DNA of 64,000 nt from Herbidospora galbida (GTDB taxonomy: Bacteria; Actinomycetota; Actinomycetes; Streptosporangiales; Streptosporangiaceae), in assembly GCF_005233835.1 (NCBI RefSeq), contig NZ_SZQA01000027.1, positions 1 to 64,000 on the forward strand. The letters run 5' to 3'. This document shows positions 5,168 through 35,772 of the stretch, in pieces; positions within the stretch are counted from its first letter, which is position 1, and every line of letters starts with the position of its first letter. The translations under genes were made by a program, and so were the position numbers. The notes under the pieces are model-generated. The model had not been told where the DNA came from. It made no database searches and saw only the letters and a list, made by a program, of their open reading frames with translations.

Positions 5168-7189
5168 ATGTCACGAAGAGTGGCGTTGGCGGCGGTCACG
5201 GCCACCGCCGTGGGCTTGGGCCTGGTGGTGGCCGGCCCGGCGGCGGCTCATCAGACGGCTCATCAGACGGCGACCCCGACCGCGGTGACGCGGGCCGCAC
5301 TTGACCCGTCGCTGGTGGCGGGCCGCGGCGCGAACGTCCCGTTCGTCGAGCAGGAGGCCGAGAACGCGGCCACCAACGGCGTCGTGATCGGCCCCGACAG
5401 GAACGCGTACACGCTCCCGGCCGAGGCCTCGGGCCGCAAGGCGGTCAAGCTGGCCCCCGGGCAGTGGGTGGAGTTCACCCTGCCGAAGGCCGCCAACGCC
5501 GTCACCGTTCGCTACAGCGTCCCCGACGCCCCGAACGGCGGCGGCATCACCGCTCCGCTGAACCTGACCGTCAACGGCGGCAACAAGAAGACCCTGACGC
5601 TGACCAGCCAGTTCGCGTGGCTCTACAACCAGTATCCGTTCACCAACGACCCGAACGCCGGGCTGCTGCACCCCGACTGGTGGATCACCGAGTGCCAGTG
5701 CGTGCCGGCCGCGACGAGCCCCACGCCCGAGATCACCAAGCCGTTCCGGCCGATGCACTTCTACGACGAGCAGCGGCTCCTGCTCGGCAAGACGTACAAG
5801 GCCGGTGACAAGGTCCGGCTGACCGCCCCGGCGAACACCAACGCCGCCTGGACGGTCATCGACCTGCTCGACTCCGAGGTCGTCGGCGCCCCCCACGTGC
5901 GGGTGCTGGCCGCCAACGTGCTGCTGTTCGGCGCCGACCCGACCGGCCGCAAGGACTCGGCCCCGGCCATCGAGAAGGCCATCGCGTTCGCCAAGCGGAG
6001 CAACCTGAAGGTCTACATCCCGCCGGGCACCTACCAGGTCAACCGGCACATCATCGTCGACGACGTGACGATCGAGGGCGCCGGGTCCTGGTACACGATC
6101 ATCAAGGGCAAGGAGGTCGCGCTGCCGACCCCGGCCCCCGACGGCTCGGTGCACACCGGCGTCGGCTTCTACGGCAAGGACGCCGCCGACGGCGGCAGCC
6201 GCAACGTGCACCTGTCGGGCTTCACCATCGAGGGCGACGTACGGGAACGGATCGACACCGACCAGGTCAACGGCATCGGCGGCGCGATGAGCGACTCGAC
6301 GATCAAGGGCCTGTACATCCGGCACACCAAGGTCGGGCTCTGGTTCGACGGCCCGATGGACAACATCAAGGTGACCGACAACATCATCGTCGACCAGATC
6401 GCCGACGCCCTGAACTTCCACGGCGGCGTGACCAACTCGGTGGTGGCCAACAACTTCATCCGCAACACGGGTGACGACGGCCTGGCCATGTGGTCGGAGA
6501 AGAACCCCAACGTCGGCAACGTCTTCGACCGCAACACCGTGCAGACCCCGACGCTCGCCAACGGCATCGCGATCTACGGCGGCAAGGACAACGTCGTCTC
6601 GAACAACCTGGTGGCCGACCCGCTGCGTGAGGGCTCCGGCCTGCACGCCGGGTCCCGCTTCGGCGCCGAGCCCTTCACCGGCACCCTGAAGTTCACCGAC
6701 AACACCACGGTCCGGGCCGGCACCTTCGACCTGAACTGGCGGCTGGGCCTCGGCTCGATCTGGTTCTACGCGCTCGACCGCTCGATCGAGAACGACATCC
6801 AGGTCACCGGCGACCACTACCTCGACAGCACCTACAACGCGATCATGATGGTGAGCGAGTGGGGCGTGAAGGACCTCTACTCGATCACCGGCGTGAAGTT
6901 CAAGAACGTCAGAATCGACGGCACCGGCACGTCGGTCCTGAGCGCCCGCGTCAAGGGCGGCGCGTCGTTCGAGAACGTCGACGCCCGCAACGTCGGGGCC
7001 GTCGGCATCAACAACTGCGGCTCGTTCAACTTCCCGCCGACCGGCTCGGAGTTCTCCGTGACCGACCTCGGCGGCAACGACGGCGGCGGCACCACCGGCC
7101 CGTGGGCCGGCGCCTGGCAGCTGCCCAACACCATCACGTGCGACGACCGCCCGCCGGTCGTGGCGCCCCCGGCCCCGTCCCCCTGGTAG
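5168..7189 (+). CDS. Secreted GH87-type alpha-1,3-glucanase (mutanase-like)
   Basis: ATG 5168 gives a clean signal peptide (MSRRVALAAV, cleavage near residue 30); upstream in-frame starts do not. The 673-residue product has an N-terminal carbohydrate-binding-like beta-sandwich (about residues 45-215, EQEAENA start) and a right-handed beta-helix catalytic region from about residue 230 (FGADPTGRKDSAPAIEKAI, the usual pectate-lyase-3 entry motif). Asp413 in ADALNFHGG and the pair Asp436/Asp437 in TGDDGLAMW are separated by 23 and 24 residues. As I recall, that is the spacing of the three essential aspartates of GH87 alpha-1,3-glucanases (for example D1045/D1068/D1069). The enzyme would hydrolyse fungal wall or bacterial alpha-1,3-glucan outside the cell. 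It is monocistronic between two terminators. Another beta-helix glycosidase family is the alternative. Confidence 0.8.
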   Translation: MSRRVALAAVTATAVGLGLVVAGPAAAHQTAHQTATPTAVTRAALDPSLVAGRGANVPFVEQEAENAATNGVVIGPDRNAYTLPAEASGRKAVKLAPGQWVEFTLPKAANAVTVRYSVPDAPNGGGITAPLNLTVNGGNKKTLTLTSQFAWLYNQYPFTNDPNAGLLHPDWWITECQCVPAATSPTPEITKPFRPMHFYDEQRLLLGKTYKAGDKVRLTAPANTNAAWTVIDLLDSEVVGAPHVRVLAANVLLFGADPTGRKDSAPAIEKAIAFAKRSNLKVYIPPGTYQVNRHIIVDDVTIEGAGSWYTIIKGKEVALPTPAPDGSVHTGVGFYGKDAADGGSRNVHLSGFTIEGDVRERIDTDQVNGIGGAMSDSTIKGLYIRHTKVGLWFDGPMDNIKVTDNIIVDQIADALNFHGGVTNSVVANNFIRNTGDDGLAMWSEKNPNVGNVFDRNTVQTPTLANGIAIYGGKDNVVSNNLVADPLREGSGLHAGSRFGAEPFTGTLKFTDNTTVRAGTFDLNWRLGLGSIWFYALDRSIENDIQVTGDHYLDSTYNAIMMVSEWGVKDLYSITGVKFKNVRIDGTGTSVLSARVKGGASFENVDARNVGAVGINNCGSFNFPPTGSEFSVTDLGGNDGGGTTGPWAGAWQLPNTITCDDRPPVVAPPAPSPW

Positions 7190-7399: not shown

Positions 7400-8146
7400 T
7401 CAGCGGCGGAAGATCTTGTTGCCGAGCCACACCAGCGGGTCGTACTTCCGGTCGACCACGCGCTCCTTCATCGGGATCAGCGCGTTGTCGGTGATCTTGA
7501 TGTGCTCGGGGCACACCTCCGTACAGCACTTGGTGATGTTGCAGTAGCCCAGGCCGTGGTCCTCCTGCGCGGAGTCCTTGCGGTCGGCCACGTCGTAGGG
7601 GTGCATGTCGAGCTCGGCGATCCGCATGAGGAAACGCGGCCCCGCGAAGTGGGTCTTGTTCTCCTCGTGGTCACGGATCACGTGGCAGACGTTGTTGCAC
7701 ATGAAGCACTCGATGCACTTGCGGAACTCCTGCGAGCGCTCCACGTCGATCTGCTGCATGCGGTATTCGCCCGGCTTCACGTCCTTCGGCGGCGTGAACG
7801 ACGGGATCTCGCGGGCCTTCTGGTAGTTGTACGACACGTCGGTGACCAGGTCTTTGATGACCGGGAAGGTGCGCATCGGGGTGACCGTGATGGTCTCGTC
7901 CTCGGTGAAGGTCGACATGCGGGTCATGCAGCCCAGGCGCGGCTTGCCGTTGATCTCCATCGAGCACGAGCCGCACTTGCCGGCCTTGCAGTTCCAGCGC
8001 ACCGCGAGGTCGGGCGCCTGGGTGGCCTGCAGCCGGTGGATGACGTCGAGGACGACCTCGCCCTCGTTGACCTCGACCGTGAAGTCCTCCAGGCGGCCTT
8101 CTCCGCCTTCGCCGCGCCAGACGCGGAACTTGCCCTTGTAACTCAT
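7400..8146 (-). CDS. sdhB: Succinate dehydrogenase 1 iron-sulfur subunit
   Basis: The 248-residue protein has an N-terminal plant-type ferredoxin fold with the [2Fe-2S] ligands CKAGKCGSCS and a distal Cys in PRLGC. The C-terminal helical domain has CIECFMCNNVCH for [4Fe-4S] and CNITKCCTEVCP for the last cluster. It passes electrons from SdhA to the membrane anchor on the inner face of the membrane. Sequence style and the partner anchor place it in the Sdh1 group known from mycobacteria (Rv0247c-Rv0249c type). It is the last gene of the minus-strand operon, overlaps sdhA by 4 bases (ATGA) and is followed by a strong terminator. Confidence 0.93.
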   Translation of the reverse strand: MSYKGKFRVWRGEGGEGRLEDFTVEVNEGEVVLDVIHRLQATQAPDLAVRWNCKAGKCGSCSMEINGKPRLGCMTRMSTFTEDETITVTPMRTFPVIKDLVTDVSYNYQKAREIPSFTPPKDVKPGEYRMQQIDVERSQEFRKCIECFMCNNVCHVIRDHEENKTHFAGPRFLMRIAELDMHPYDVADRKDSAQEDHGLGYCNITKCCTEVCPEHIKITDNALIPMKERVVDRKYDPLVWLGNKIFRR

Positions 8147-10035
8147 GACAACTCCTTGGCCGCGGCGTCGTACTCCGCGAGTTCATCCTCGGTGAGGTAC
8201 TTCGAGAGCTCGGCCCGGTCGAACAGGGTGATCAGGTCGCCGCGCATGGACACCTGGGTCTTCTCGACGACCTGGACGTCGGAGCCGTCGGGCTTGGCCG
8301 AGCAGACCAGCAGCTTGCGGCGCCACTCCGGCTCCATCGCCGGGTAGTCGTCGCGGGTGTGGCCGCCCCGGCTCTCCTGCCGCAGCAGCGCGGCCTTGGC
8401 GACGCACTCGCTGACCAGCAGCATGTTGCGCAGGTCGATGGCGAGGTGCCAGCCGGGGTTGTAGATCTTGCCGCCGGGGGCGGTCGTGTTGGTCGCGCGC
8501 TCCTTGAGCTTCTCGACCACCTGCAGGGCCTCGGCGACCTCGTTCTCCTTGCGGATGATGCCGACCAGGTCGTTCATCGTGCGCTGGAGCTCGTGGTGGA
8601 CCTCGTAGGGGTTCTCGCCGCCCTGGCGCTCCAGCGGGGCCAGCGCCTCGGCGTGGGCCTCCTCGACGCCGGTCACCTGCGGGCGCTTGGCGCCCAGCGA
8701 GTCGACGTACGCCGCCGCGCCCGCGCCCGCCCGGCGGCCGAAGACCAGCAGGTCGGACAGGGAGTTGCCGCCCAGGCGGTTGGAGCCGTGCATGCCGCCC
8801 GACACCTCGCCGGCCGCGAACAGGCCGGGCACCGAGGCCGCGCCGGTGTCGGCGTCGACCTCGACGCCACCCATGACGTAGTGGCAGGTCGGGCCGACCT
8901 GCATCGGCTCGGCGGTGATGTCGACGTCGGCCAGCTCCTTGAACTGGTGGTGCATCGACGGCAGCCGCTTGATGATCTCGGCGGCCGGGAGCCGCGAGGA
9001 CACGTCCAGGAAGACCCCGCCCTGGGGTGAGCCACGGCCGGCCTTGACCTCGGCGTTGATCGCGCGGGCGACCTCGTCACGCGGCAGCAGCTCCGGAGGG
9101 CGGCGGTTGTTGGCCTGGTCGGTGTACCAGCGGTCGCCCTCCTCCTCGGTGGTGGCGTACTTGTCCTTGAAGACGTCCGGGATGTAGTCGAACATGAACC
9201 GGCGGCCCTCGGAGTTCGTCAGCACGCCGCCGTCGCCGCGGACCGACTCGGTCACCAGGATGCCCCGGACCGACGGCGGCCAGACCATGCCGGTCGGGTG
9301 GAACTGGATGAACTCCATGTTGATCAGGTTCGCGCCCGCGAGCAGGGCCAGCGCGTGGCCGTCGCCCGTGTACTCCCAGGAGTTCGAGGTGACCACGAAC
9401 GACTTGCCGATGCCGCCGGTGGCCAGGACCACGGCCGGGGCGTCGAAGACGATGAACTTGCCGGTCTCGCGCCAGTAGGCGAAGGCGCCGGAGATCGCGT
9501 CGCCGTCCTTCAGAAGACGGGTGACGGTGCACTCGGCGAAGACCTTGATGTAGGCCTCGTAGTCGCCGTGGACCTCGAAGTCCTCCTGCTGCAGGGCCAC
9601 CACGCGCTGCTGGAGGGTGCGGATCATCTCCAGGCCGGTGCGGTCGCCGACGTGGGCCAGGCGCGGGTATTCGTGCCCGCCGAAGTTGCGCTGGCTGATC
9701 TTGCCGTCTTTGGTGCGGTCGAACAGCGCGCCCCACGCCTCCAGCTCCCAGACCCGGTCGGGAGCCTCCTTCGCGTGCAGCTCGGCCATCCGCCAGTTGT
9801 TCAGGAACTTGCCGCCCCGCATGGTGTCGCGGAAGTGGACCATCCAGTTGTCGTCGGAGTTGACGTTGCCCATCGCCGCCGCCGCGCCGCCCTCGGCCAT
9901 GACGGTGTGCGCCTTGCCGAACAGCGACTTGCAGATGATCGCGGTGCGCTTGCCCTGCTGACGTGCCTCGATCGCCGCCCGGAGGCCGGCTCCGCCGGCT
10001 CCGATGACGACGACGTCGTATTCGTGACGTTCCAC
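8143..10035 (-). CDS. sdhA: Succinate dehydrogenase 1 flavoprotein subunit
   Basis: The 630-residue protein opens with the FAD dinucleotide motif GAGGAGLRAA near residue 13. It contains AHTVMAEGGAAAAMGN, whose His is the expected site of covalent FAD attachment, the substrate motif FIQFHPTG and the HYVMGG active-site segment. It oxidises succinate to fumarate and delivers electrons to SdhB. Length and motifs are normal for the family. It lies between sdhC1 (12-base gap) and sdhB1 (4-base overlap). This flavoprotein belongs to a different subfamily from the one encoded at 16029-17954, so the two operons are not recent duplicates. Confidence 0.93.
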   Translation of the reverse strand: MERHEYDVVVIGAGGAGLRAAIEARQQGKRTAIICKSLFGKAHTVMAEGGAAAAMGNVNSDDNWMVHFRDTMRGGKFLNNWRMAELHAKEAPDRVWELEAWGALFDRTKDGKISQRNFGGHEYPRLAHVGDRTGLEMIRTLQQRVVALQQEDFEVHGDYEAYIKVFAECTVTRLLKDGDAISGAFAYWRETGKFIVFDAPAVVLATGGIGKSFVVTSNSWEYTGDGHALALLAGANLINMEFIQFHPTGMVWPPSVRGILVTESVRGDGGVLTNSEGRRFMFDYIPDVFKDKYATTEEEGDRWYTDQANNRRPPELLPRDEVARAINAEVKAGRGSPQGGVFLDVSSRLPAAEIIKRLPSMHHQFKELADVDITAEPMQVGPTCHYVMGGVEVDADTGAASVPGLFAAGEVSGGMHGSNRLGGNSLSDLLVFGRRAGAGAAAYVDSLGAKRPQVTGVEEAHAEALAPLERQGGENPYEVHHELQRTMNDLVGIIRKENEVAEALQVVEKLKERATNTTAPGGKIYNPGWHLAIDLRNMLLVSECVAKAALLRQESRGGHTRDDYPAMEPEWRRKLLVCSAKPDGSDVQVVEKTQVSMRGDLITLFDRAELSKYLTEDELAEYDAAAKELS

Positions 10036-10047
10036 GGTGAACAGTCC

Positions 10048-10833
10048 TTACGCGAACGGGAAGGTGATGACGCCCTTGGCCACCATGCGGACGTAGAAGT
10101 CGGCGATCATCACCGAGAACAGCGACGCCCACGCCAGCTGCATGTGCTTGGCGTTGAGCTTGGAGACGAAGGTCCAGGCCCGGTAGCGCAGCGGGTGCTT
10201 GGAGAAGTGGTTCAGCCGCCCGGCGGTGATGTGCCGGCACGAGTGGCACGACAGCGTGTACAGCACGATCAGGGCCGCGTTGATGAGCAGGATCCAGGTG
10301 CCCAGCCCCGCCGGCTTGTGGATCAGTGCGAGGATCGCGTCATAGCTCAGGATGGCGCCGATCAGGATCGCACCGTAGAAGAAGTAGCGGTGGACGTTCT
10401 GGATGACCAGCGGGAGGCGGGTCTCGCCGGTGTACTTCTTGTGCGGCTCACCGACGGCGCAGGCGGGCGGGCTCAGCCAGAACGACCGGTAGTACGACTT
10501 CCGATAGTAGTAACACGTGAACCGGAAGCCGGCCGGCAGGCCGAGGATGATCAGGCCGGGCGGCAACGCGAACCAGTCGCCGATCGGGGCCCAGCCGAAC
10601 AGCCGGGCGCCCTCCGGGCACGCCGTCGTCAGACACGGCGACGAGAAGGGCGCGATATAGGGCTCGACGAAGTAACTCTTGTCGAAGATCGCCCAGAAAC
10701 CGTAGATCAAGAAGAAGGTGAGACCGGCGAACGTGAGCGCCGGGGCGAGCCACCATCGGTCGGTGCGGAGCGTACGCACCTTGAGCTGAGCGCGTTGTTT
10801 TCTGGCCGGGCTCTCGGCCGTCTGCTGGGTCAT
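10048..10833 (-). CDS. sdhC: Sdh1 membrane anchor with CHxCxH motif (Rieske-like cluster site)
   Basis: ATG 10833 is chosen because GGAAGG lies 6 bases upstream; a further in-frame start 24 codons earlier has no ribosome site. The 261-residue protein has about five hydrophobic helices and a large non-cytoplasmic loop after the first. Residues 196-201 read CHSCRH at the end of a membrane helix. Sdh1 of Mycobacterium smegmatis was reported to hold a Rieske-type [2Fe-2S] cluster in its membrane subunit. Cys196, His197, Cys199 and His201 are therefore candidate ligands here; the match is my inference. The anchor would reduce menaquinone. It is the first gene of the sdh1 operon. Confidence 0.85.
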   Translation of the reverse strand: MTQQTAESPARKQRAQLKVRTLRTDRWWLAPALTFAGLTFFLIYGFWAIFDKSYFVEPYIAPFSSPCLTTACPEGARLFGWAPIGDWFALPPGLIILGLPAGFRFTCYYYRKSYYRSFWLSPPACAVGEPHKKYTGETRLPLVIQNVHRYFFYGAILIGAILSYDAILALIHKPAGLGTWILLINAALIVLYTLSCHSCRHITAGRLNHFSKHPLRYRAWTFVSKLNAKHMQLAWASLFSVMIADFYVRMVAKGVITFPFA

Positions 10834-10948
10834 CGGAGACCTTCCACCGGAACTGACCGCGTGACGCCGTGTTGGGCGGCTCGCGCCGAACCGCCGCGTC
10901 GCCACGCCGTATTGGTGGGGGCTACGTTACGACCATGTCATAGATACG

Positions 10949-10991
10949 TGTGAGGAGGGTCACTGACTTCTGGCCTGTGATTCCTGTCACG
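10949..10991 (-). promoter_or_regulatory. Tandem CRP-like sites upstream of sdh1
   Basis: Two sites fit TGTGA-N6-TCACR/T: 10949-10964 (TGTGA, TCACT) and 10976-10991 (TGTGA, TCACG), centres 27 bp apart. They lie 116-158 bases before the sdhC1 start codon, in the only non-coding space of the region. The consensus is that of CRP/FNR-family regulators, including mycobacterial Crp. Binding is not demonstrated. Confidence 0.5.
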
Positions 10992-10999
10992 TTTCTTGA

Positions 11000-11452
11000 T
11001 CATGACCCCCTGTGGGAATTGCCCGGGAGCTTCACGACAGTCACGAAGAAATCATCGATCTGTCGTACTACCCGGATGAACTGGTCGAAATCCACCGGCT
11101 TGGAGACGTACGCGTTGGCGTGCAGCTTGTAGCTCCGCACGATGTCCTCCTCGGCCTCCGACGTGGTCAGCACCACCACGGGGATCGAGCGCAGCTCCGG
11201 GTCGGCCTTGATCTCCTCCAGCACCTCCCGGCCGTCCTTACGCGGCAGGTTGAGGTCGAGCAGGATCAGGTCGGGACGGGGTGAACCGTCGTATTCGTCC
11301 TCGTGGCGGAGGAACCGCAACGCCTGCTCGCCGTCGTTGACGATGTGCAGCTTGTTGCGGACCTTGTTCAGTTCGAAGGCCTCCTGTGTGAGCAGCACGT
11401 CACCCGGGTCGTCTTCGACCAGCAGGACGTCGATCCAGCGCAGCTCATTCAT
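11000..11452 (-). CDS. Single-domain response regulator (Rcp1-like)
   Basis: The 150-residue protein is a stand-alone receiver domain. It has the acidic pair in VEDDPGD, phospho-acceptor Asp in [13 protein letters not shown], Thr/Ser in VVLTTS and Lys in VSKPVD. There is no output domain, which is typical of partners of phytochrome-type or hybrid sensor kinases. ATG 11452 was chosen because it gives a family-typical start ([15 protein letters not shown]) and overlaps the kinase stop by 8 bases. It is the last gene of a phosphatase-kinase-receiver operon. It probably relays phosphate from the adjacent kinase to another protein, perhaps the upstream PP2C regulator. Confidence 0.9.
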
Positions 11453-15294: not shown

Positions 15295-16028
15295 GTGACT
15301 GCCACTATCGACCGGGGCAAGGCCACCGAACCGGTCACCCAGATACCCACCAGGCCCCGGCGATCCCGGCGCCGGGTCTCGTCGAACTCTCTCAAGGCCG
15401 TCATGGCCGTGTCGGGCGCGGTCCTGGTCTTCTTCCTGGTCGCCCACATGGCCGGCAACCTGAAGATCTTCGCCGGCGCCGAGTCGTTCAACGGCTACGC
15501 CGCCTGGCTGCGCGAGGTCGGCTACCCGCTGCTGCCGCACCGGGGCCTGCTGACCCTTCTCGAGGCGGGCCTGGTCGTCGCGATCGCGGCCCACATGTAC
15601 TCGGCGATCGTGCTGGCCCGCCGGGCGGCGCACGCCCGCCCGGTCAAGTACGCCGCCCGCGTGAAATCCCGCGCCAACGGCTACGCGACCCGCACCATGC
15701 GCTGGGGCGGCGTGATCATCTTCTTCTTCGTGATCTACCACCTGCTCGACATGACCTTCGGCGTGGCCAACCCCGAGGGCCACGAGGCCACCCCGTTCGC
15801 CCGGATGGTGGCCGGGTTCGAGCCGGCCCGGTGGTACATCACGGTGTTCTACGTGATCTCGGTGGTCATGGTGGGCCTGCACCTGCGGCACGGCCTGTGG
15901 AGCGCCCTGCAGACCCTCGGCCTGGCCCGGCGCTACCCGGTTCTCACATTGAGCGCGGCGGCGCTGAGCGGCCTGCTGACGATCGGCTTCCTGGTCGTCC
16001 CGCTGGCGATCACGTTCGGAGTGGTGAA

Positions 16029-16032
<4 letters not shown>
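15295..16032 (+). CDS. sdhC: Succinate dehydrogenase 2 cytochrome b558 subunit
   Basis: The 245-residue protein has five predicted membrane helices with family histidines in [22 protein letters not shown] and GLHLRHGLW. These are candidate axial ligands of two b hemes, as in the b558-type quinone oxidoreductases of Bacillus and Wolinella. It anchors SdhA and SdhB and transfers electrons to menaquinone. GTG 15295 is preferred to an in-frame ATG at 15268 because it sits at leaderless distance from a good -10 element. The stop overlaps sdhA2 (ATGA). It is the first gene of a three-gene operon controlled from the LysR-divergent spacer. Confidence 0.9.
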
Positions 16033-17950
<1,918 letters not shown>

Positions 17951-17954
<4 letters not shown>

Positions 17955-18697
17955 ACCTCACCCTGAAGGTCTGGCGGCAGAGCGGCCCCGACGACGACGG
18001 GAGGCTGGTCCGCTACCAGATCGAGGACGTCTCCCCGGACATGTCGTTCCTGGAGATGCTCGACGTGCTCAACGAGCGGCTCATCCTGGCGGGCGACGAC
18101 CCGATCGCCTTCGACCACGACTGCCGCGAGGGCATCTGCGGCATGTGCTCGATGATGATCGACGGCGTCGCGCACGGCCCGCAGAAGAACACCACCACGT
18201 GCCAGCTGCACATGCGCCACTACAACGACGGCGACACCATCGTCATCGAGCCCTGGCGGGCCCGCCCGTTCCCGGTGGTGAAGGACCTGGTCGTCGACCG
18301 GTCGGCGTTCGACCGCATCATCCAGGCGGGCGGCTTCATCTCCGTCCCGGCCGGATCGGCGCCAGACGCCCACGCCACCCCGGTGCCGAAGCTCGACGCC
18401 GACTCGGCGTTCGACGCGGCGACCTGCATCGGGTGCGGCGCGTGCGTGGCGGCCTGCCCGAACGGCTCGGCCTCGCTGTTCACCGCCGCCAAGATCACCC
18501 ACCTGGGCCTGCTCCCGCAGGGTCAGCCCGAGCGCGGCTCCCGGGCCCGCGCCATGGTCGAGCAGATGGACGAGGAGGGCTTCGGCGGCTGCACCAACAC
18601 CGGCGAATGCACCGCGGTATGCCCTAAGGGCATTCCTCTCGACACGATCGCTCGCATGAACGCCGACTACCTGAGAGCATCCCGCAAGTCTGGGTAG
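17951..18697 (+). CDS. sdhB: Succinate dehydrogenase 2 iron-sulfur subunit
   Basis: The 248-residue protein has [2Fe-2S] ligands in [10 protein letters not shown] and a later TTCQLH, and the second domain has [14 protein letters not shown] and [14 protein letters not shown] for the [4Fe-4S] and terminal clusters. It links SdhA2 to the b558 anchor. GTG 17951 overlaps the sdhA2 stop (GTGA). It is the last gene of the operon, followed after 13 bases by a 15-bp terminator stem. The cluster motifs differ throughout from sdhB of the first operon, in line with separate ancestry. Confidence 0.92.
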
Positions 18698-30021: not shown

Positions 30022-31851
30022 TTACAGATAGAGAAGAATGTCGCGATCCCCGCGTTCTCTCAGCCTTCCGAGGACGTCGTCCTTGCCCGCGCCGTCGGGC
30101 ATGCCGATGCGGGCGCCGATCAGCCGCAGGCCTTCGGCCTCGGAGGCGACGGGGGCGGTGTATCCGATGAGGTGGAGGGCCTTGTTGAGCGGCGGCAGCC
30201 CGGCCGCGCCCTGCGGCAGGAACCGGGTCAGCAGCTCGCCGCCGTCGGAGACGGTCAGGAAGACGTGGTCGCCCTCGCCGGCGTTGTATTCGGCCAGGAT
30301 CGGGCGGATCGAGCCCATCGTCGGCTGGTTGTGCCACGAGATCACCACCTCCCCCTGCGGGGTCGAGGCGGTGAGCTGGCCGCCGGGCGCCATGCCGAGG
30401 TGGGCCGCGAACCCGGTCGGCAGCGGGGAGCCCGAGCCACGCAGGTGCTCGGCGTTCACGTCGACCCGGTGCCACCAGCGGCCGTCGCGGCTGCGGAAGC
30501 AGCGGCGGGTCATCGACACGTCGCGGCGCGGCTGGTAGTCGGCCGGTTCGGCGCCCGCGACTCTGATCCAGCCGCGCTGGGTGCGCTCGAACCCGGGGCC
30601 GCCGGCGTAGGCGCGCACCGAGCTCTCGCTCACCTCGTAGCGGGAGGTCAGCGACGCCACGATCGTGTTGACCGAGGCCTCGCCGCCGGCCTTCTCGATC
30701 TCGCGGGCGATCATCTCGCGGATGCCGAGATACTCCTCGCCGCCCCAGCGGGCCAGGCCGTACTTGTTGCGGTCGAGCCGGAGGAAGCGGTCGTCGGCGG
30801 TCAGCTGGTTGCGGATGCCGACCAGGCTGTAGTCCTCGCCGATCCGGTTCTGGATCTCCTCGGGCGTGAGCGGGGTGCCGGCCACGGCCAGCACGGCCTC
30901 GGCCTTGTCGTTCACGCTCCTCGGCCACGGCACGACATGGCCTTCGAGCAGCCGCAGCTGCGGCACCGCCCCAAGCCAGCGCTCCCCGACGTCTTCGCGC
31001 ACCCCGAGCTGGGCGACCATGCCGACCGCCTCGCCCAGCGGCACGGGCCCGTCGGTGAACAGCTGCCGCGTCTTCTCCCGCAGCTCGTCGGCGCCCCCGG
31101 CCACCAGCCACCCGTCGACCTGGTCGTAGCCGGTCAGCAGCGTGCGGACGAACCGCCAGGCCGGGATGCCCAGCGTGGCCAGCTCGGTGCGGTGCCAGGG
31201 CACCGCCGCCATCAGGTCGTCGGCCGGCACCGCCGACCCGAGCCGGGTGCGCAGCCACGTGAGGTGGGCGGTGAGCGGGGTCGCCTCCTGGCCCCGCAGC
31301 CAGTTGTCGACGTGGTCGCGCAGGTCGCGCTCGATCTGCCGGATGCGCTCGCGGGTGACCGAGAACCGCTGCGCCAGTTCGTCGAGGGTGGCGCGGTGCT
31401 CGGCGTAGAGCCGGTCGCGGGCGATCGCGCGCTGGCGGTCGTCGAGCCGCTGGAACAGCTCGTCGATGATCTCGGGCAGCGGCCTTTCCGGAACGGCGGG
31501 CGGCACGCTGGCCAGCGGGTTGAGCGGCTCGGTGTCCATGAGCCGGTCGAGCACCCCGGCGAACAGCAGCCGGACGCTGTCGCGGCTGCCCGGCGTGCGC
31601 TGGCTCTCGGCCGGAGCGGTGAACCGCAGCAGCGGCATGATGTCGCCGAGGATCAGGTGTCCCCAGCAGGCGGACGTGAGATCGGCCAGTTTGGCCGCGA
31701 TCTGGGCCGGCCCGACCGTGGCGCAGGCGCGGTCGATCGGGAGCGCCTGCCACCACGAGTTCGGGAGGCCGGGATCGCTGGCGATCGGCTCCACCTGGCT
31801 GGGCGCGGTCCAGCGCAGGGGGGGCACGATGTCGCTCAGGCTCAAATTCAT
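30022..31851 (-). CDS. Helicase-cassette protein C with sigma region 4-like HTH
   Basis: The 609-residue protein starts MNLSLSDIVPPLRW. Residues 155-179 read LDELAQRFSVTRERIRQIER, a sigma-70 region 4 type helix-turn-helix. Residues about 323-430 look like paired winged-helix modules (TPEEIQNRIGE, VNTIVASLTSRYEVS). Residues 450-549 form a domain with DGRWW, RVDV, LPTGFA and FLTVSDGG, and the C-terminal tail ends RLRERGDRDILLYL. The N-terminus, middle, RWW domain and tail are paralogous to the protein at 33961-35667. It is transcribed last, 48 bases after the helicase. A DNA-binding role is likely from the HTH modules; no catalytic motif is visible. I do not recognise a named family. Confidence 0.8.
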   Translation of the reverse strand: MNLSLSDIVPPLRWTAPSQVEPIASDPGLPNSWWQALPIDRACATVGPAQIAAKLADLTSACWGHLILGDIMPLLRFTAPAESQRTPGSRDSVRLLFAGVLDRLMDTEPLNPLASVPPAVPERPLPEIIDELFQRLDDRQRAIARDRLYAEHRATLDELAQRFSVTRERIRQIERDLRDHVDNWLRGQEATPLTAHLTWLRTRLGSAVPADDLMAAVPWHRTELATLGIPAWRFVRTLLTGYDQVDGWLVAGGADELREKTRQLFTDGPVPLGEAVGMVAQLGVREDVGERWLGAVPQLRLLEGHVVPWPRSVNDKAEAVLAVAGTPLTPEEIQNRIGEDYSLVGIRNQLTADDRFLRLDRNKYGLARWGGEEYLGIREMIAREIEKAGGEASVNTIVASLTSRYEVSESSVRAYAGGPGFERTQRGWIRVAGAEPADYQPRRDVSMTRRCFRSRDGRWWHRVDVNAEHLRGSGSPLPTGFAAHLGMAPGGQLTASTPQGEVVISWHNQPTMGSIRPILAEYNAGEGDHVFLTVSDGGELLTRFLPQGAAGLPPLNKALHLIGYTAPVASEAEGLRLIGARIGMPDGAGKDDVLGRLRERGDRDILLYL

Positions 31852-31899
31852 GCAGGTCCAACCGGCAAGGGGAATATATCCGCAGTTCAGATTAGGGGA

Positions 31900-33954
31900 T
31901 CAGGCGGGAAGGAAGGGACTCGCGCGACCGGAGTAGGACACGTAGAGCAACTCGTTCGCCCGCGTGCACGCGACATAGAGCAACCCCCGTTCCCGCTGCA
32001 GGTCGTGCGCTCGTGCCATCGGATCCTCGGCGTGGGGCGTCAGCGCGTCGGGCGCCGGGATGATCCCCTCAGCGACACCTATCACGGCCACCCGCCGGAA
32101 CTCCAGCCCCTTCATACCGTGCAGCATCGTGACTTTCACCTCGATACCCGCGTCGCGCAGGGCGGCGCGGGCCATCCGGACGATCTCGACCGTGCGGGCG
32201 GTGACGGCGATCTCCTCGGGGGCCACGCCGTCGGCCAGCCAGTCGCTCACATGGGCGACCAGGCCGCCGATCTCGGCCTCCTGGGAGACGTACTCGCGCA
32301 CCAGCGGGCGCGGGCCGTGGACGGTGGAGCGGTAGCCGTACATCTCGGCCGCGCCCTCGACCAGGCCGTCGACGGGGCCGCCGCCCCGGAGCCGGACGCC
32401 GAACGAGAGGATCTCGTGCGGCAGCCGGTAGGAGATCTTCAGGTGGAACCGGCGGACCGGGATGCCCATGCCGGCCAGCGCCGCGCGGGTGTCGAACATG
32501 CGCTGGTGGGGGTCGCCCACGATGAACATGTCGTTGGGACCGGGCGGCACCGCCGCCCGGAGCAGCCGCCACTGCGCAGGGTGCAGGTCCTGAGCCTCGT
32601 CGATCACCACGTGCTTGTACGGCTCCCGCCGCGGCGCGTCGCTCTCGAGCACGTCGGTCGTACGCCCGAGCAGCTCGGCGCCCTCGGAGGCCAGCTGGAG
32701 CAGGGTGCGCCGCCCCGACTCGCGCAGGCGGCCCTCGACGTGCTCCACCGCCCGCCACACGCTGGTGCGGATGTCGGAGTTCAGCTGGACGCCCCGGCCG
32801 GGCCGTTCGGCCGCCAGGTACTCCTCCAGCGTCCGCAGGTTCTGGGAGAGGATCACCTGCTCCCACTCGCGCAGCAGGAACGCCGCGCCGAAGCGGCTCC
32901 CGGCCGCCTCCTCCCACAGCTTGGTCACGTCGCCGACCAGCGTGGGGGCCTTGCCCTCGTGGGCCGCGACGATGCGGTGGGCCAGCCGGTCGACGTTGGT
33001 GACCTCGACCCGCTTGCGCACGATCTCGTCGTCGATGATCAGGTCGAGCTTGGCCGACAGCTCGTTGGCGAGCACCTGCGAGAAGGTGGTCAGCAGGATC
33101 GGCCCGCTGTTCTCCTTGGCCAGGTAGGCCGCGCGGTGCAGCGAGATCACCGTCTTGCCGGTCCCGGCGCCGCCGGTGACCAGGACGGGCCGGTCGTAGA
33201 CCGGCCAGTTGGCGTAGGTGTACTGCGGCGCGTAGAGGAACGTGCACCAGTGGGGCTTGGTCAGCACCCGGTCGAGCTCGACCCGGTCGGCGGCGAAGGC
33301 GGCCTGGCCGGGGGAGCGGTGGAGCGCGGCCTCGAGGTCGTCGAGGTCGAGGTTCTCGGCGGTGGTGACCCGGCAGCCGTCGAGTTCGCGCCAGGCCTCG
33401 GCCAGTGATCCGCCCCGGGCGAGGACGGCGAGGGGGGCGTACTGGCTCTCGGGGAGCAGGGGTTCCACGGCGGCCAGGTGGGCGTCGGTGGCCATCATCC
33501 GGACCATCGGCAGCAGCAGTTCCTGGTCGATGCCGATGTCGATCAGGTCGGTCTCGCAGATGTGGCCGTAGAGGCGCTTGCTCGATCCGGCCGCCGACCG
33601 GCGGAGGGCGGGCTCGACGCGGGCCAGAGCCTCGGCGTCCCAGACCTCGATGACGCCGATCGCGGAGTTCACGGTGAAGCGGTGCCGTTGCGCGTAGGTG
33701 TAGGCCTCGGCGTCGGGCAGTACCGTGACGAGCCAGTAGACGTCGCGCTGGCGTACGGCCACCGCCCGGTGCCGGTCGGCCAGGCGTAACGTCGTCACGC
33801 GGGGGTCGCGCGCGTTCCGCACCCGCTCGGGCACGGGGCCGGCGGGCGAGTTGTGCAGAAACCGTCTGACGGACACCACGGCGTCCCGCCGCACCGGGCG
33901 GGCCAGTGCGGCGAGTTCCTGAGTGAAGTCCAGGGAGACGGCGAGGCGGGGCAT
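31900..33954 (-). CDS. SF1 (UvrD-like) helicase with RelE-like N-terminal domain
   Basis: The 684-residue protein begins with about 90 residues resembling a RelE/ParE-type toxin fold (KVR-like VPERVRNARDPRVTTLRLAD, VAVRQRDVYWLVTVLPDAEA). The helicase core has Walker A GGAGTGKT at 261-268, Walker B VVIDEAQD at 449-456, motif III GDPHQRMF, motif IV SYRLPHEI, motif V LHGMKGLEF and motif VI LYVACTRAN. It should translocate on single-stranded DNA using ATP. No nuclease domain is visible. It lies 6 bases after one paralogous partner and 48 before the other, with little or no ribosome site, which indicates coupled expression. DNA repair or phage defence are both possible. Confidence 0.88.
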   Translation of the reverse strand: MPRLAVSLDFTQELAALARPVRRDAVVSVRRFLHNSPAGPVPERVRNARDPRVTTLRLADRHRAVAVRQRDVYWLVTVLPDAEAYTYAQRHRFTVNSAIGVIEVWDAEALARVEPALRRSAAGSSKRLYGHICETDLIDIGIDQELLLPMVRMMATDAHLAAVEPLLPESQYAPLAVLARGGSLAEAWRELDGCRVTTAENLDLDDLEAALHRSPGQAAFAADRVELDRVLTKPHWCTFLYAPQYTYANWPVYDRPVLVTGGAGTGKTVISLHRAAYLAKENSGPILLTTFSQVLANELSAKLDLIIDDEIVRKRVEVTNVDRLAHRIVAAHEGKAPTLVGDVTKLWEEAAGSRFGAAFLLREWEQVILSQNLRTLEEYLAAERPGRGVQLNSDIRTSVWRAVEHVEGRLRESGRRTLLQLASEGAELLGRTTDVLESDAPRREPYKHVVIDEAQDLHPAQWRLLRAAVPPGPNDMFIVGDPHQRMFDTRAALAGMGIPVRRFHLKISYRLPHEILSFGVRLRGGGPVDGLVEGAAEMYGYRSTVHGPRPLVREYVSQEAEIGGLVAHVSDWLADGVAPEEIAVTARTVEIVRMARAALRDAGIEVKVTMLHGMKGLEFRRVAVIGVAEGIIPAPDALTPHAEDPMARAHDLQRERGLLYVACTRANELLYVSYSGRASPFLPA

Positions 33955-33960
33955 GGGGGC

Positions 33961-35667
33961 CTAACCCAGCAGGGACAGCAGGTCTCTGTCCCCACGTTCT
34001 CGGAGGCGGGCCCGCAGTTCGTCGGGCGGGGTCGGGCCGGTCAGGCCGATGCGCGTGGCGATCACGCGGTCGGCCTGGTCGGAGTTTCCGCCGGGGGCCG
34101 TGTAACCGACCAGGCGCAGCGCCCGCGCGATCGTGTCGCCGGAGTTGGCGGCGGGGAGATGGCGGACCCTGAGCATGCCCTCGTCGGAGAGGGTGAGAAA
34201 GATATGGCTGCCCTCCTTGGCCGCGACCTCGCTGAGGATGCGGCCGAGCGAGTCGATGGCGGGGGACTCCCGCCAGGTCATCGTGACGTCTCCGGCGGCG
34301 CTGCGCACCGTTCTTTCGCCACCCGGCGACAACCCCAGGTAGAGGGCGAAGCCCTCCGGGAGGCCGACCGACGTGCCCGCCAGATGACCGGCGTCGACGT
34401 CGACCCGCAGCCACCATCGCCCGTCGGGCTGACGGAAGCAGCGCTGCGTCTGCGACACGTCCGACGGCCGGGGCGGAGCGGGTGGAGCCGGTGGAGCCGC
34501 CGGAGCGGGCGCCGCGCCGTTGGGACTCTGTATCCGCAACTGCGGGACGTTCTCCAGCCACTCCTTGGCGACCTCGGGGTGGATGCCGAGGGAGGAGACG
34601 AGTTCGAGGGCCCGGGACACGGTCGGCGGGCGTTCGGCGTTCACGATCAGGCCGCGGGTGCGTTCGTGCAGCTCGGCCAGGTCGCCCTGGACGACCCAGT
34701 CGCCGGAGACCTGGTAGCCGGGCAGCGTGGCCAGCACGAACTGCCAGGCGAGGACGTCGAGGGAGGCCAGCTCGCGGGTGTGCCACTCGGCGGCGTTGAC
34801 CAGCCGCGACTTGGGCGCGGCCACGCCGAGGAGGTCGGTCAGGTTGAGCAGGTAGCCGCGGTAGCGGGCGGCGGGCGGCGAGGCGAGCCATTCCTTGAGC
34901 CGGGCGCGCAGCGTGTTCTCGGTCACCTCGATGAGGCTCGCGGGCACGCCGAGCAGCTTGGAGAGGGACTCGGGCGAGGTGGGGGAGTCGGTGAAGACCC
35001 GGTTCTGCGCGACCATCCAGCTGTGGTCGTCGAGCGAGGCGAAGACCCGGTCGATCACGTCGGGGAAGTCGGGGTCGTCGTCCTCCCCCGTGAGCCGGGG
35101 CTGCGGGACCACCGGCGGCTGGGTGGCGTCGTCTTCGGGCTCCTCGGCCCGCGCCTTGGTCTCGAAGGGCGCTCTGAAGGGGGTCTTGAGCGCGGCCCTG
35201 GTCTCGTAGGGTTCCTCGGGCTCGGGATCCTCGGGCTCGGGTTCCACCGGCGTCCTGGACGGCACCTCGGTGGCCGCCAGCTTCGACAGCACCGCCGAGT
35301 AGAGCGCCGCGAGTAACGGCCGGGCCTTCACGAACGGCTGCTCGGTCAGCTCACGGCCGGTCAGCGCCAGCAGGCCGGGCCACGACCCCGCCCGGTCGAG
35401 CGCGATCCCCACCTGGGGGTCGTCGGCGTCGTCGGGGTCGAGCACGTGCAGCGCGGGCAGCACGTCGCCCACCGCCGCGGCCGGCCACTGTTCCAGGGTC
35501 AGGTCGGTCAGCAGCTCGGACAGGGCGTCGACCCCGAAGGCGGGCAGCACCCGGCCCATCGGGAGCGAGCGCCACCACGCGTCGGGTAATCCGGCCCGAC
35601 CAGCCAGGATGGTGGCAGCGTCACTCCAGCGCAGCGGTGGCACGAGGTCACTCAGGCAGAAGTTCAT
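33961..35667 (-). CDS. Helicase-cassette protein A, paralogue of protein C
   Basis: ATG 35667 is chosen because it aligns with the paralogue start (MNFCLSDLVPPLRW against MNLSLSDIVPPLRW) and has GGGGA upstream. The 568-residue protein shares the N-terminus, the middle segment (HTRELASLDVLAWQFV ... NVPQLR, about 296-378), the RWW domain (about 408-505) and the tail RLRERGDRDLLSLLG. At the position of the HTH in protein C it has a diverged segment (PESLSKLLGVPASLIEVTE). The winged-helix region is replaced by a Pro/Ala linker, and an acidic Pro/Glu stretch occupies about 136-200. It is first in the helicase operon. It may be a non-DNA-binding partner subunit. Confidence 0.8.
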   Translation of the reverse strand: MNFCLSDLVPPLRWSDAATILAGRAGLPDAWWRSLPMGRVLPAFGVDALSELLTDLTLEQWPAAAVGDVLPALHVLDPDDADDPQVGIALDRAGSWPGLLALTGRELTEQPFVKARPLLAALYSAVLSKLAATEVPSRTPVEPEPEDPEPEEPYETRAALKTPFRAPFETKARAEEPEDDATQPPVVPQPRLTGEDDDPDFPDVIDRVFASLDDHSWMVAQNRVFTDSPTSPESLSKLLGVPASLIEVTENTLRARLKEWLASPPAARYRGYLLNLTDLLGVAAPKSRLVNAAEWHTRELASLDVLAWQFVLATLPGYQVSGDWVVQGDLAELHERTRGLIVNAERPPTVSRALELVSSLGIHPEVAKEWLENVPQLRIQSPNGAAPAPAAPPAPPAPPRPSDVSQTQRCFRQPDGRWWLRVDVDAGHLAGTSVGLPEGFALYLGLSPGGERTVRSAAGDVTMTWRESPAIDSLGRILSEVAAKEGSHIFLTLSDEGMLRVRHLPAANSGDTIARALRLVGYTAPGGNSDQADRVIATRIGLTGPTPPDELRARLRERGDRDLLSLLG

Positions 35668-35692
35668 CGCTATCCCCATCACTTCCGTAAGA

Positions 35693-35708
35693 CCAGACCA
35701 TAGTCTGG
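35693..35708 (-). promoter_or_regulatory. Inverted repeat upstream of the helicase cassette
   Basis: CCAGAC-CATA-GTCTGG forms a 6-bp inverted repeat 25 bases before the start of protein A. On the minus strand TATGGT lies within it and could be a -10 hexamer, so bound protein would block transcription. Confidence 0.5.
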
Positions 35709-35772
35709 CAAATCCCCTGCCGTGGCGGGAGTTTCATCCGTGACGAACAGCCACAAACGATGGTGTCACCCT

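Follow-up and report, generated by a model that had tools for sequence, protein, structure and literature searches.

A core operon of one bacterial family encodes a UvrD-type helicase between two paralogous proteins of DNA-binding type

Three adjacent genes of Herbidospora galbida, here termed A, B and C, encode a UvrD-type superfamily 1 (SF1) helicase (B) and two large paralogous proteins (A and C), and they form an operon that is fixed in the chromosome, inherited vertically and part of the core of one bacterial family. The genes were studied in a window of 64,000 nucleotides (contig NZ_SZQA01000027.1, positions 1 to 64,000), from a genome of 8.3 Mb assembled in 116 contigs (G000; G-numbers denote genomes, L-numbers loci, and g4 is a genus label). 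The trio is a tightly linked and strongly constrained operon with its own control element, present in 15 genera of our sample and without a name in the libraries searched. Overall, we tentatively propose that B serves as an ATPase motor recruited by C, which itself would target promoter DNA or RNA polymerase, a function like that of HelD and delta; we regard this reading as possible, if short of probable. The trio looks like an undescribed transcription- or genome-maintenance device more than an anti-phage system.

Linkage, constraint and upstream element of the operon

A check of open reading frames (ORFs) returned the three minus-strand genes described in an earlier note on this DNA, with intergenic gaps of 6 bases between A and B and 48 bases between B and C. 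Members of the A/C family were present in at least 125 genomes of an order-level sample of 150, and a C orthologue was found in 65, counts of C resting on the matches listed, classed by position and size. An orthologue of B (59–100% identity) adjoins C in 64 of these 65 genomes (15 genera), at no more than 1.2 kb from the C match; conversely, all 64 B matches in this identity range adjoin a C. The 65th genome (G450), which with G414 was one of two odd genomes inspected by hand, retains C intact at this locus (77.6% identity). There A is absent, and B persists solely as a remnant directly upstream of C, a stretch matching residues 584–684 with 76% identity (L207:8899-9201). Another genome (G031) has an A-like protein at this locus and no B-like stretch. 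In a phylum-level sample a family member was found in 4 of 295 genomes besides the window's own (E up to 1e-10).

Gene order around the trio is shared between genera. The upstream methyltransferase gene was present in all 15 other trio genomes read and was followed by ferredoxin and DapC genes in 14; on the other flank at least one neighbour from the window was retained in 13 (MshB itself in ten), and in 13 of the 15 window neighbours flank the trio on both sides. Across nine loci of other genera, identity to the window's C was 79.0% (range 75.9–85.6). The conserved neighbours gave 80.2% for DapC (n = 8), 80.5% for the methyltransferase (n = 9) and 94.3% for ferredoxin (n = 8), with 66.6% for B (n = 9), 60.8% for MshB (n = 4), 56.0% for a solute-binding protein (n = 8) and, over 63% of its length, 60.2% for A (n = 9). 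C, about as conserved as DapC, is therefore under housekeeping-like constraint.

The operator-like repeat that the earlier note placed before the cassette is real: a palindrome, CCAGAC-TATG-GTCTGG, lies about 26 bases before the start of A. The 19-mer TTTGCCAGACTATGGTCTG, which contains most of it, was found with up to four mismatches upstream of A in the window, in all 15 trio loci read, of which 14 have one mismatch or none, and in three further loci; it was absent at this threshold from all non-trio loci searched. It stands 24–116 bases from the A start (16 loci), between flanks that hardly align from genus to genus. In the 150-genome sample the pattern TTTGYCRGACTATGGTCTG occurred with at most one mismatch upstream of the operon, on the same contig, in 60 of 64 trio genomes (an exact match in 44, a single mismatch in 16), and a further genome (G453) has it on the contig bearing its A start, for a total of 61 of 64; the remaining three (G396, G375 and G018, the last at L090) carry decayed forms. 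None of the 86 genomes without the trio had the element at one mismatch or fewer and two had two-mismatch matches; a reversed-pattern control matched in four genomes of the sample. In the window's own genome the 16-base core was found once at up to two mismatches, and the reversed control seven times. The simplest reading of an operator confined to this operon would be that one of the operon's own proteins recognises it. A itself was seen directly in the window, in the 15 trio loci and in three others, and in three exceptional cases its start was read; elsewhere its presence was inferred from the space between the operator and B. We also considered whether the element might be a DNA-damage (PafBC-type) promoter and rejected this: the PafBC-type consensus shares the first bases, but the –10 spacing misfits and the window's genome has no second site.

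Domain composition of the three proteins

Protein C has a sigma-70 region 4 domain by Pfam (34.9 bits against a cut-off of 24.1), and this segment matches SigA chains in the Protein Data Bank (PDB). The recognition helix VTRERIRQIE was the same in ten of ten C rows and in SigA; it was lost in all rows of A (10/10) and of two further paralogue groups, D (7/7) and S (9/9). In sigma factors these recognition-helix residues read the –35 element. The structure predicted for C from a six-row alignment has the sigma-4 domain first and several winged helices in succession after it, and Foldseek matched the model to a sigma-4 structure (6onu; prob 1.00, TMt 0.74, E 0.1) and to an RpoE–RpoC model (9a6y; prob 0.98, E 0.43), with SelB also among the matches. 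The sigma region 4-like helix-turn-helix (HTH) and winged helices that had been ascribed to C, and its assignment as the DNA-binding-type partner, are thus upheld, the winged helices as predictions. For the RWW domain no fold or sequence match was obtained from PDB sequences or Foldseek. A B3-like DNA-binding pseudobarrel, to which its sequence pattern points, is at most a lead for this domain, no B3 match being found in Pfam, PDB sequences or the top 50 Foldseek rows (model pLDDT 70.2).

A and C align at 39–40% identity over an N-terminal LSD(L/I)VPPLRW motif, an HTH-containing middle, a VPQLR segment, the RWW domain and an RLRERGDRD tail, and they are paralogues, as had been proposed on the basis of these motifs. 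The two winged helices of C (residues 312–431) have no counterpart in A. The ORF of A ranges from 562 to 1580 aa among loci L087-L095 through Pro/Ala-rich linkers, and the length of C is constant.

B is a UvrD-type SF1 helicase by its N- and C-terminal Pfam cut-offs (UvrD-helicase 6.4e-21, 75.7 bits against 23; UvrD_C 6.2e-12, 46 against 25.6) and by its motifs, in agreement with the earlier identification, and in NCBIfam it scores best with PcrA, DNA helicase II/UvrD and helicase IV. In 14 of 15 trio loci B fits the patterns for Walker A, Walker B, DPHQR, motif V and motif VI, and 12 of the 14 have the YR motif as well, so helicase function looks kept outside genus g4. In all 17 trio genomes of g4 the listed match to B stops at about residue 341–349 and the open frames are 605–642 aa long. 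Four of these proteins were read: about 71 residues are missing and motif V is altered; Walker A, Walker B and motif VI are kept. By its place, the missing segment (Table 1) probably corresponds to the 1B subdomain of UvrD.

Table 1. Coordinates of the three genes, their protein segments and the upstream element in the window
Feature	Position	Strand	Description
Gene A	33961..35667	(-)	568 aa; paralogue of C lacking the HARE pair; degenerate HTH; linker length variable in relatives
Gene B	31900..33954	(-)	684 aa; UvrD-type SF1 helicase with N-terminal extension
B residues 1-115, N-terminal extension	33610..33954	(-)	no RelE/ParE match
B residues 261-268, Walker A GGAGTGKT	33151..33174	(-)	motif reading
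B residues ~343-414	32713..32928	(-)	missing from four g4 B proteins; direct reading
Gene C	30022..31851	(-)	609 aa; sigma region-4 HTH, tandem winged helices (one HARE-like), C-terminal beta-rich RWW domain
C residues 125-186, sigma-70 region 4-like	31294..31479	(-)	recognition helix VTRERIRQIE, same sequence as in SigA
C residues 312-369, HARE-HTH-like winged helix	30745..30918	(-)	sub-cut-off Pfam match; structural match to 9a6y
C residues 374-431, further winged helix	30559..30732	(-)	predicted structure
C residues 445-545, beta-rich RWW domain	30217..30519	(-)	common to A; no fold match
19-bp element TTTGCCAGACTATGGTCTG	35694-35712	(-)	contains most of palindrome CCAGAC-TATG-GTCTGG (35693-35708)

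A possible polymerase-directed mechanism and its alternatives

No named counterpart of the A-B-C unit was matched in Pfam, NCBIfam or PADLOC, in line with the earlier note, whose author knew of none with this composition, and no description of the operon turned up in literature searches, of which the larger result sets were covered in part. The closest functional likeness that we see is to HelD and delta, which pairs a UvrD-like SF1 ATPase with a HARE-HTH protein, the N-terminal domain of delta being a HARE domain. In Bacillus these two together dislodge nucleic acids from RNA polymerase (PMC7749165). The trio differs in that C is larger and multi-domain with a sigma-4 segment, that there is a third, paralogous protein A, and that all are encoded in one operon. 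Since B fails the curated HelD cut-offs, with scores of 51.6 against 419 (HelD_BACSU), 55.1 against 750 (HelR) and 38.9 against 1051 (HelD_MYCSM), likeness of function with HelD is proposed here and not membership.

For RNA polymerase binding, recruitment of B, autoregulation and the role of A we infer the following scheme. C, with its sigma region 4, winged helices and beta-rich domain, would be a putative DNA- and/or RNA-polymerase-binding protein that delivers B, the SF1 ATPase, to polymerase that is stalled or close to the promoter; there B might spend ATP to remodel or remove the polymerase complex. A, which lacks both the –35-reading helix and the HARE pair and has a long linker, may act as an adaptor or as a competitor of C, and the operon would be controlled via its own 19-bp operator, with C or A as the probable regulator. 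In favour of this scheme are the fixed locus, the linkage of B to C, the constraint on C, its retained recognition helix, the structural matches of its model, the distribution of the operator, the occurrence of stand-alone sigma-4 + HARE proteins in candidate-phylum metagenome-assembled genomes and the HelD–delta precedent. If C does bind RNA polymerase, the trio would represent a second helicase-based route of polymerase handling besides HelD in these bacteria, and separation-of-function variants would exist in nature, in the short B of g4 and in the C-only genome G450. A narrower form of the proposal, in which the trio is a lineage-specific polymerase accessory complex governed by an operator unique to its operon, and whose sigma-4/HARE protein reads –35-type DNA or takes the place of sigma region 4 and hands an SF1 motor to the polymerase, we regard as rather unlikely. 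If it were true, the g4 motor, lacking the part that corresponds to 1B in a complex that has been kept, would point to a non-unwinding role in transcription for a UvrD-type ATPase.

Several observations weigh against a polymerase-directed role. For C, no match to sigma region 2 was found (Pfam, E up to 1), the HARE match (20.5 bits) is below the Pfam cut-off of 25.9, and the predicted structure has a mean pLDDT of 67.9; among its 371 Foldseek matches E was 0.001 or lower for two, both chains of a UFL1–DDRGK1 chimera with tandem winged helices. B is closer to PcrA/UvrD than to HelD, whose cut-offs it misses by far, and the window's own genome has three long HelD-type matches elsewhere (G000:C30, C106 and C12), none above cut-off, and two split ones. 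The B of g4 is shortened and has an altered motif V, and in G450 C is intact though A is gone and B is a remnant. Because C is intact in that genome, and because 28 of 29 non-trio loci are free of a B-like stretch, the family can work without B. Further, paralogues of B are associated with defence genes, and defence proteins are reported to contain HARE and sigma-type HTH modules, for which a role in reading modified DNA has been proposed (PMC12839542, PMC10853773).

A complex for DNA repair or replication–transcription conflict, in which B unwinds or translocates and C and A load it at damaged or stalled sites without polymerase contact, is a somewhat unlikely alternative. The affinity of B for PcrA, DNA helicase II/UvrD and helicase IV speaks for it, and the run of DNA-binding-type domains in C, the core synteny and the strong constraint all fit; yet C in particular has kept the recognition helix of sigma-4, a feature superfluous in a generic loader, B in g4 is shortened and nevertheless kept, and the operator is a single site and not that of a damage regulon. 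It is unlikely that the trio is a set of local transcriptional regulators, with C and A binding promoters and B serving as an ATPase switch or chaperone. The conserved operator found solely at the operon, the sigma-4 helix of C, the D and S paralogues without a B-like gene nearby and the Walker A, Walker B and motif VI of the four g4 proteins are in keeping with such a role, against which stand the lack of a second operator site in the window's own genome and the retention of the helicase motif patterns in 14 of 15 trio loci.

The anti-phage function entertained in the earlier note was set aside as a first choice because the trio occupies one fixed, housekeeping-like locus, C evolves about as slowly as DapC and defence neighbours are lacking; we consider it unlikely. 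The trio genes do co-occur, as that note suggested checking, but defence genes do not lie beside them: none of ten neighbouring proteins had a PADLOC match (E up to 1e-5) except the methyltransferase (mad2, 6.4e-26), which falls in general methyltransferase families in Pfam, and no DrmA, DrmB or GmrSD was found beside the trio (PADLOC, ten neighbours; Pfam, eight neighbours). A had no PADLOC match, C a weak one to MzaA alone, and a search with the C alignment found no relative of C in viral contigs. In favour of defence, B matches GajB profiles (2.5e-26). Gabija differs from the trio in that no GajA match was found in A, C or the ten neighbours, in that the partners of B are DNA-binding-type paralogues and in the core synteny. 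MzaA, a component of the MZA system, has a sigma-4 segment in common with C (NCBIfam 2.2e-9), at 36.7 bits against a cut-off of 800, and no other MZA component was found in A-B-C or the ten neighbours. HARE–REase fusions and sigma-type HTH are reported to occur in BREX- and Dnd-related systems (PMC12839542, PMC10853773).

The remaining point in favour of defence comes from seven paralogues of B (L114-L120; 40–46% identity, with the same N-terminal extension). In each of the seven, as read, a gene for a GmrSD domain or for DrmA/DrmB lies no more than 10 kb away, in contrast to the ten neighbours of the trio: GmrSD-domain genes adjoin the paralogue in L114, L115 and L116, and DrmA and/or DrmB genes lie within 10 kb of it in L117-L120. 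These UvrD-type helicases are possibly a general accessory helicase of defence loci, and their relationship to B suggests that a helicase with defence-locus paralogues can become a fixed core gene. L116 also has genes resembling type III CRISPR, and the L119 paralogue is encoded in the window's own genome (G000:C35).

That B begins with a RelE-type ribonuclease, so that the unit would be toxin-antitoxin-like, is highly improbable: the RelE-like N-terminus was a motif reading in the earlier note, its sole support, and no RelE/ParE match was found for the N-termini of eight homologues in Pfam (E up to 10) or in the PDB (E up to 1), a profile comparison with nine ParE-family proteins giving a probability of 1.1%.

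Relatives of A and C

In a quick tree of 42 family members (no bootstrap, midpoint root), C, A and D each lie on one side of a supported branch (SH-aLRT 97–100), the suf-linked S proteins are near D, and four distant relatives fall outside. A B-like stretch was sought near non-trio loci by tblastn (E up to 1e-5); 28 of 29 were negative, the exception being G450, and the D, S, distant and candidate-phylum loci were all without one. Both positive controls were found in this test, and the contig of one distant relative is just 3.6 kb long. The claim that A and C were kept around the helicase thus holds in 64 genomes, and does not extend to the C of G450, the A-like protein of G031 or the D and S paralogues, which lack an intact helicase. 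Scattered homologues without the helicase, which the earlier note had named as evidence against its proposal, do exist; for the C orthologue this is so in just one of the 65 genomes counted. The helicase-free paralogues are at L101-L109 (S) and at L098-L100 and L110-L113 (D). Neighbours of S resemble what we take to be a suf operon, and those of D in L098 presumably pseudouridine-catabolism genes.

Among the four distant relatives the sigma-4 segment scores above the Pfam cut-off in L194 and L197 and below it in L195 and L196. The HARE cut-off, passed by L142 and L124, is failed by all four, though their sequences extend through the HARE region of C. In our view the layout of C is presumably the ancestral one and that of A derived from it. 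The N-termini of L195 and L196 have helix-hairpin-helix-like segments resembling the C-terminal domain of RNA polymerase alpha, repeated in L196, with no Pfam match.

When genome contigs were searched with the C alignment, one of two patterns being the sigma-4 helix, nine of at least 63 loci were read, of which four resemble sigma-4 + HARE proteins and five ordinary sigma factors. The stand-alone sigma-4 + HARE proteins (L142 and L124; by similarity L121 and L122) have, like C, a sigma region 4, followed by HARE where C has its HARE-like winged helix, and differ from it in having neither VPPLRW nor the RWW domain and no B-like stretch nearby. These proteins of about 365 aa occur in Peregrinibacteria, Buchananbacteria and another metagenome-assembled genome (L121, L122, L124, L142), and L121 may hold two copies (5505-6596 and 9947-11038).

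Elsewhere in the window, two gene sets that we presume from their resemblance to be succinate dehydrogenase or fumarate reductase lie within about 11 kb, at 7400-10833 (-) and 15403-18697 (+).

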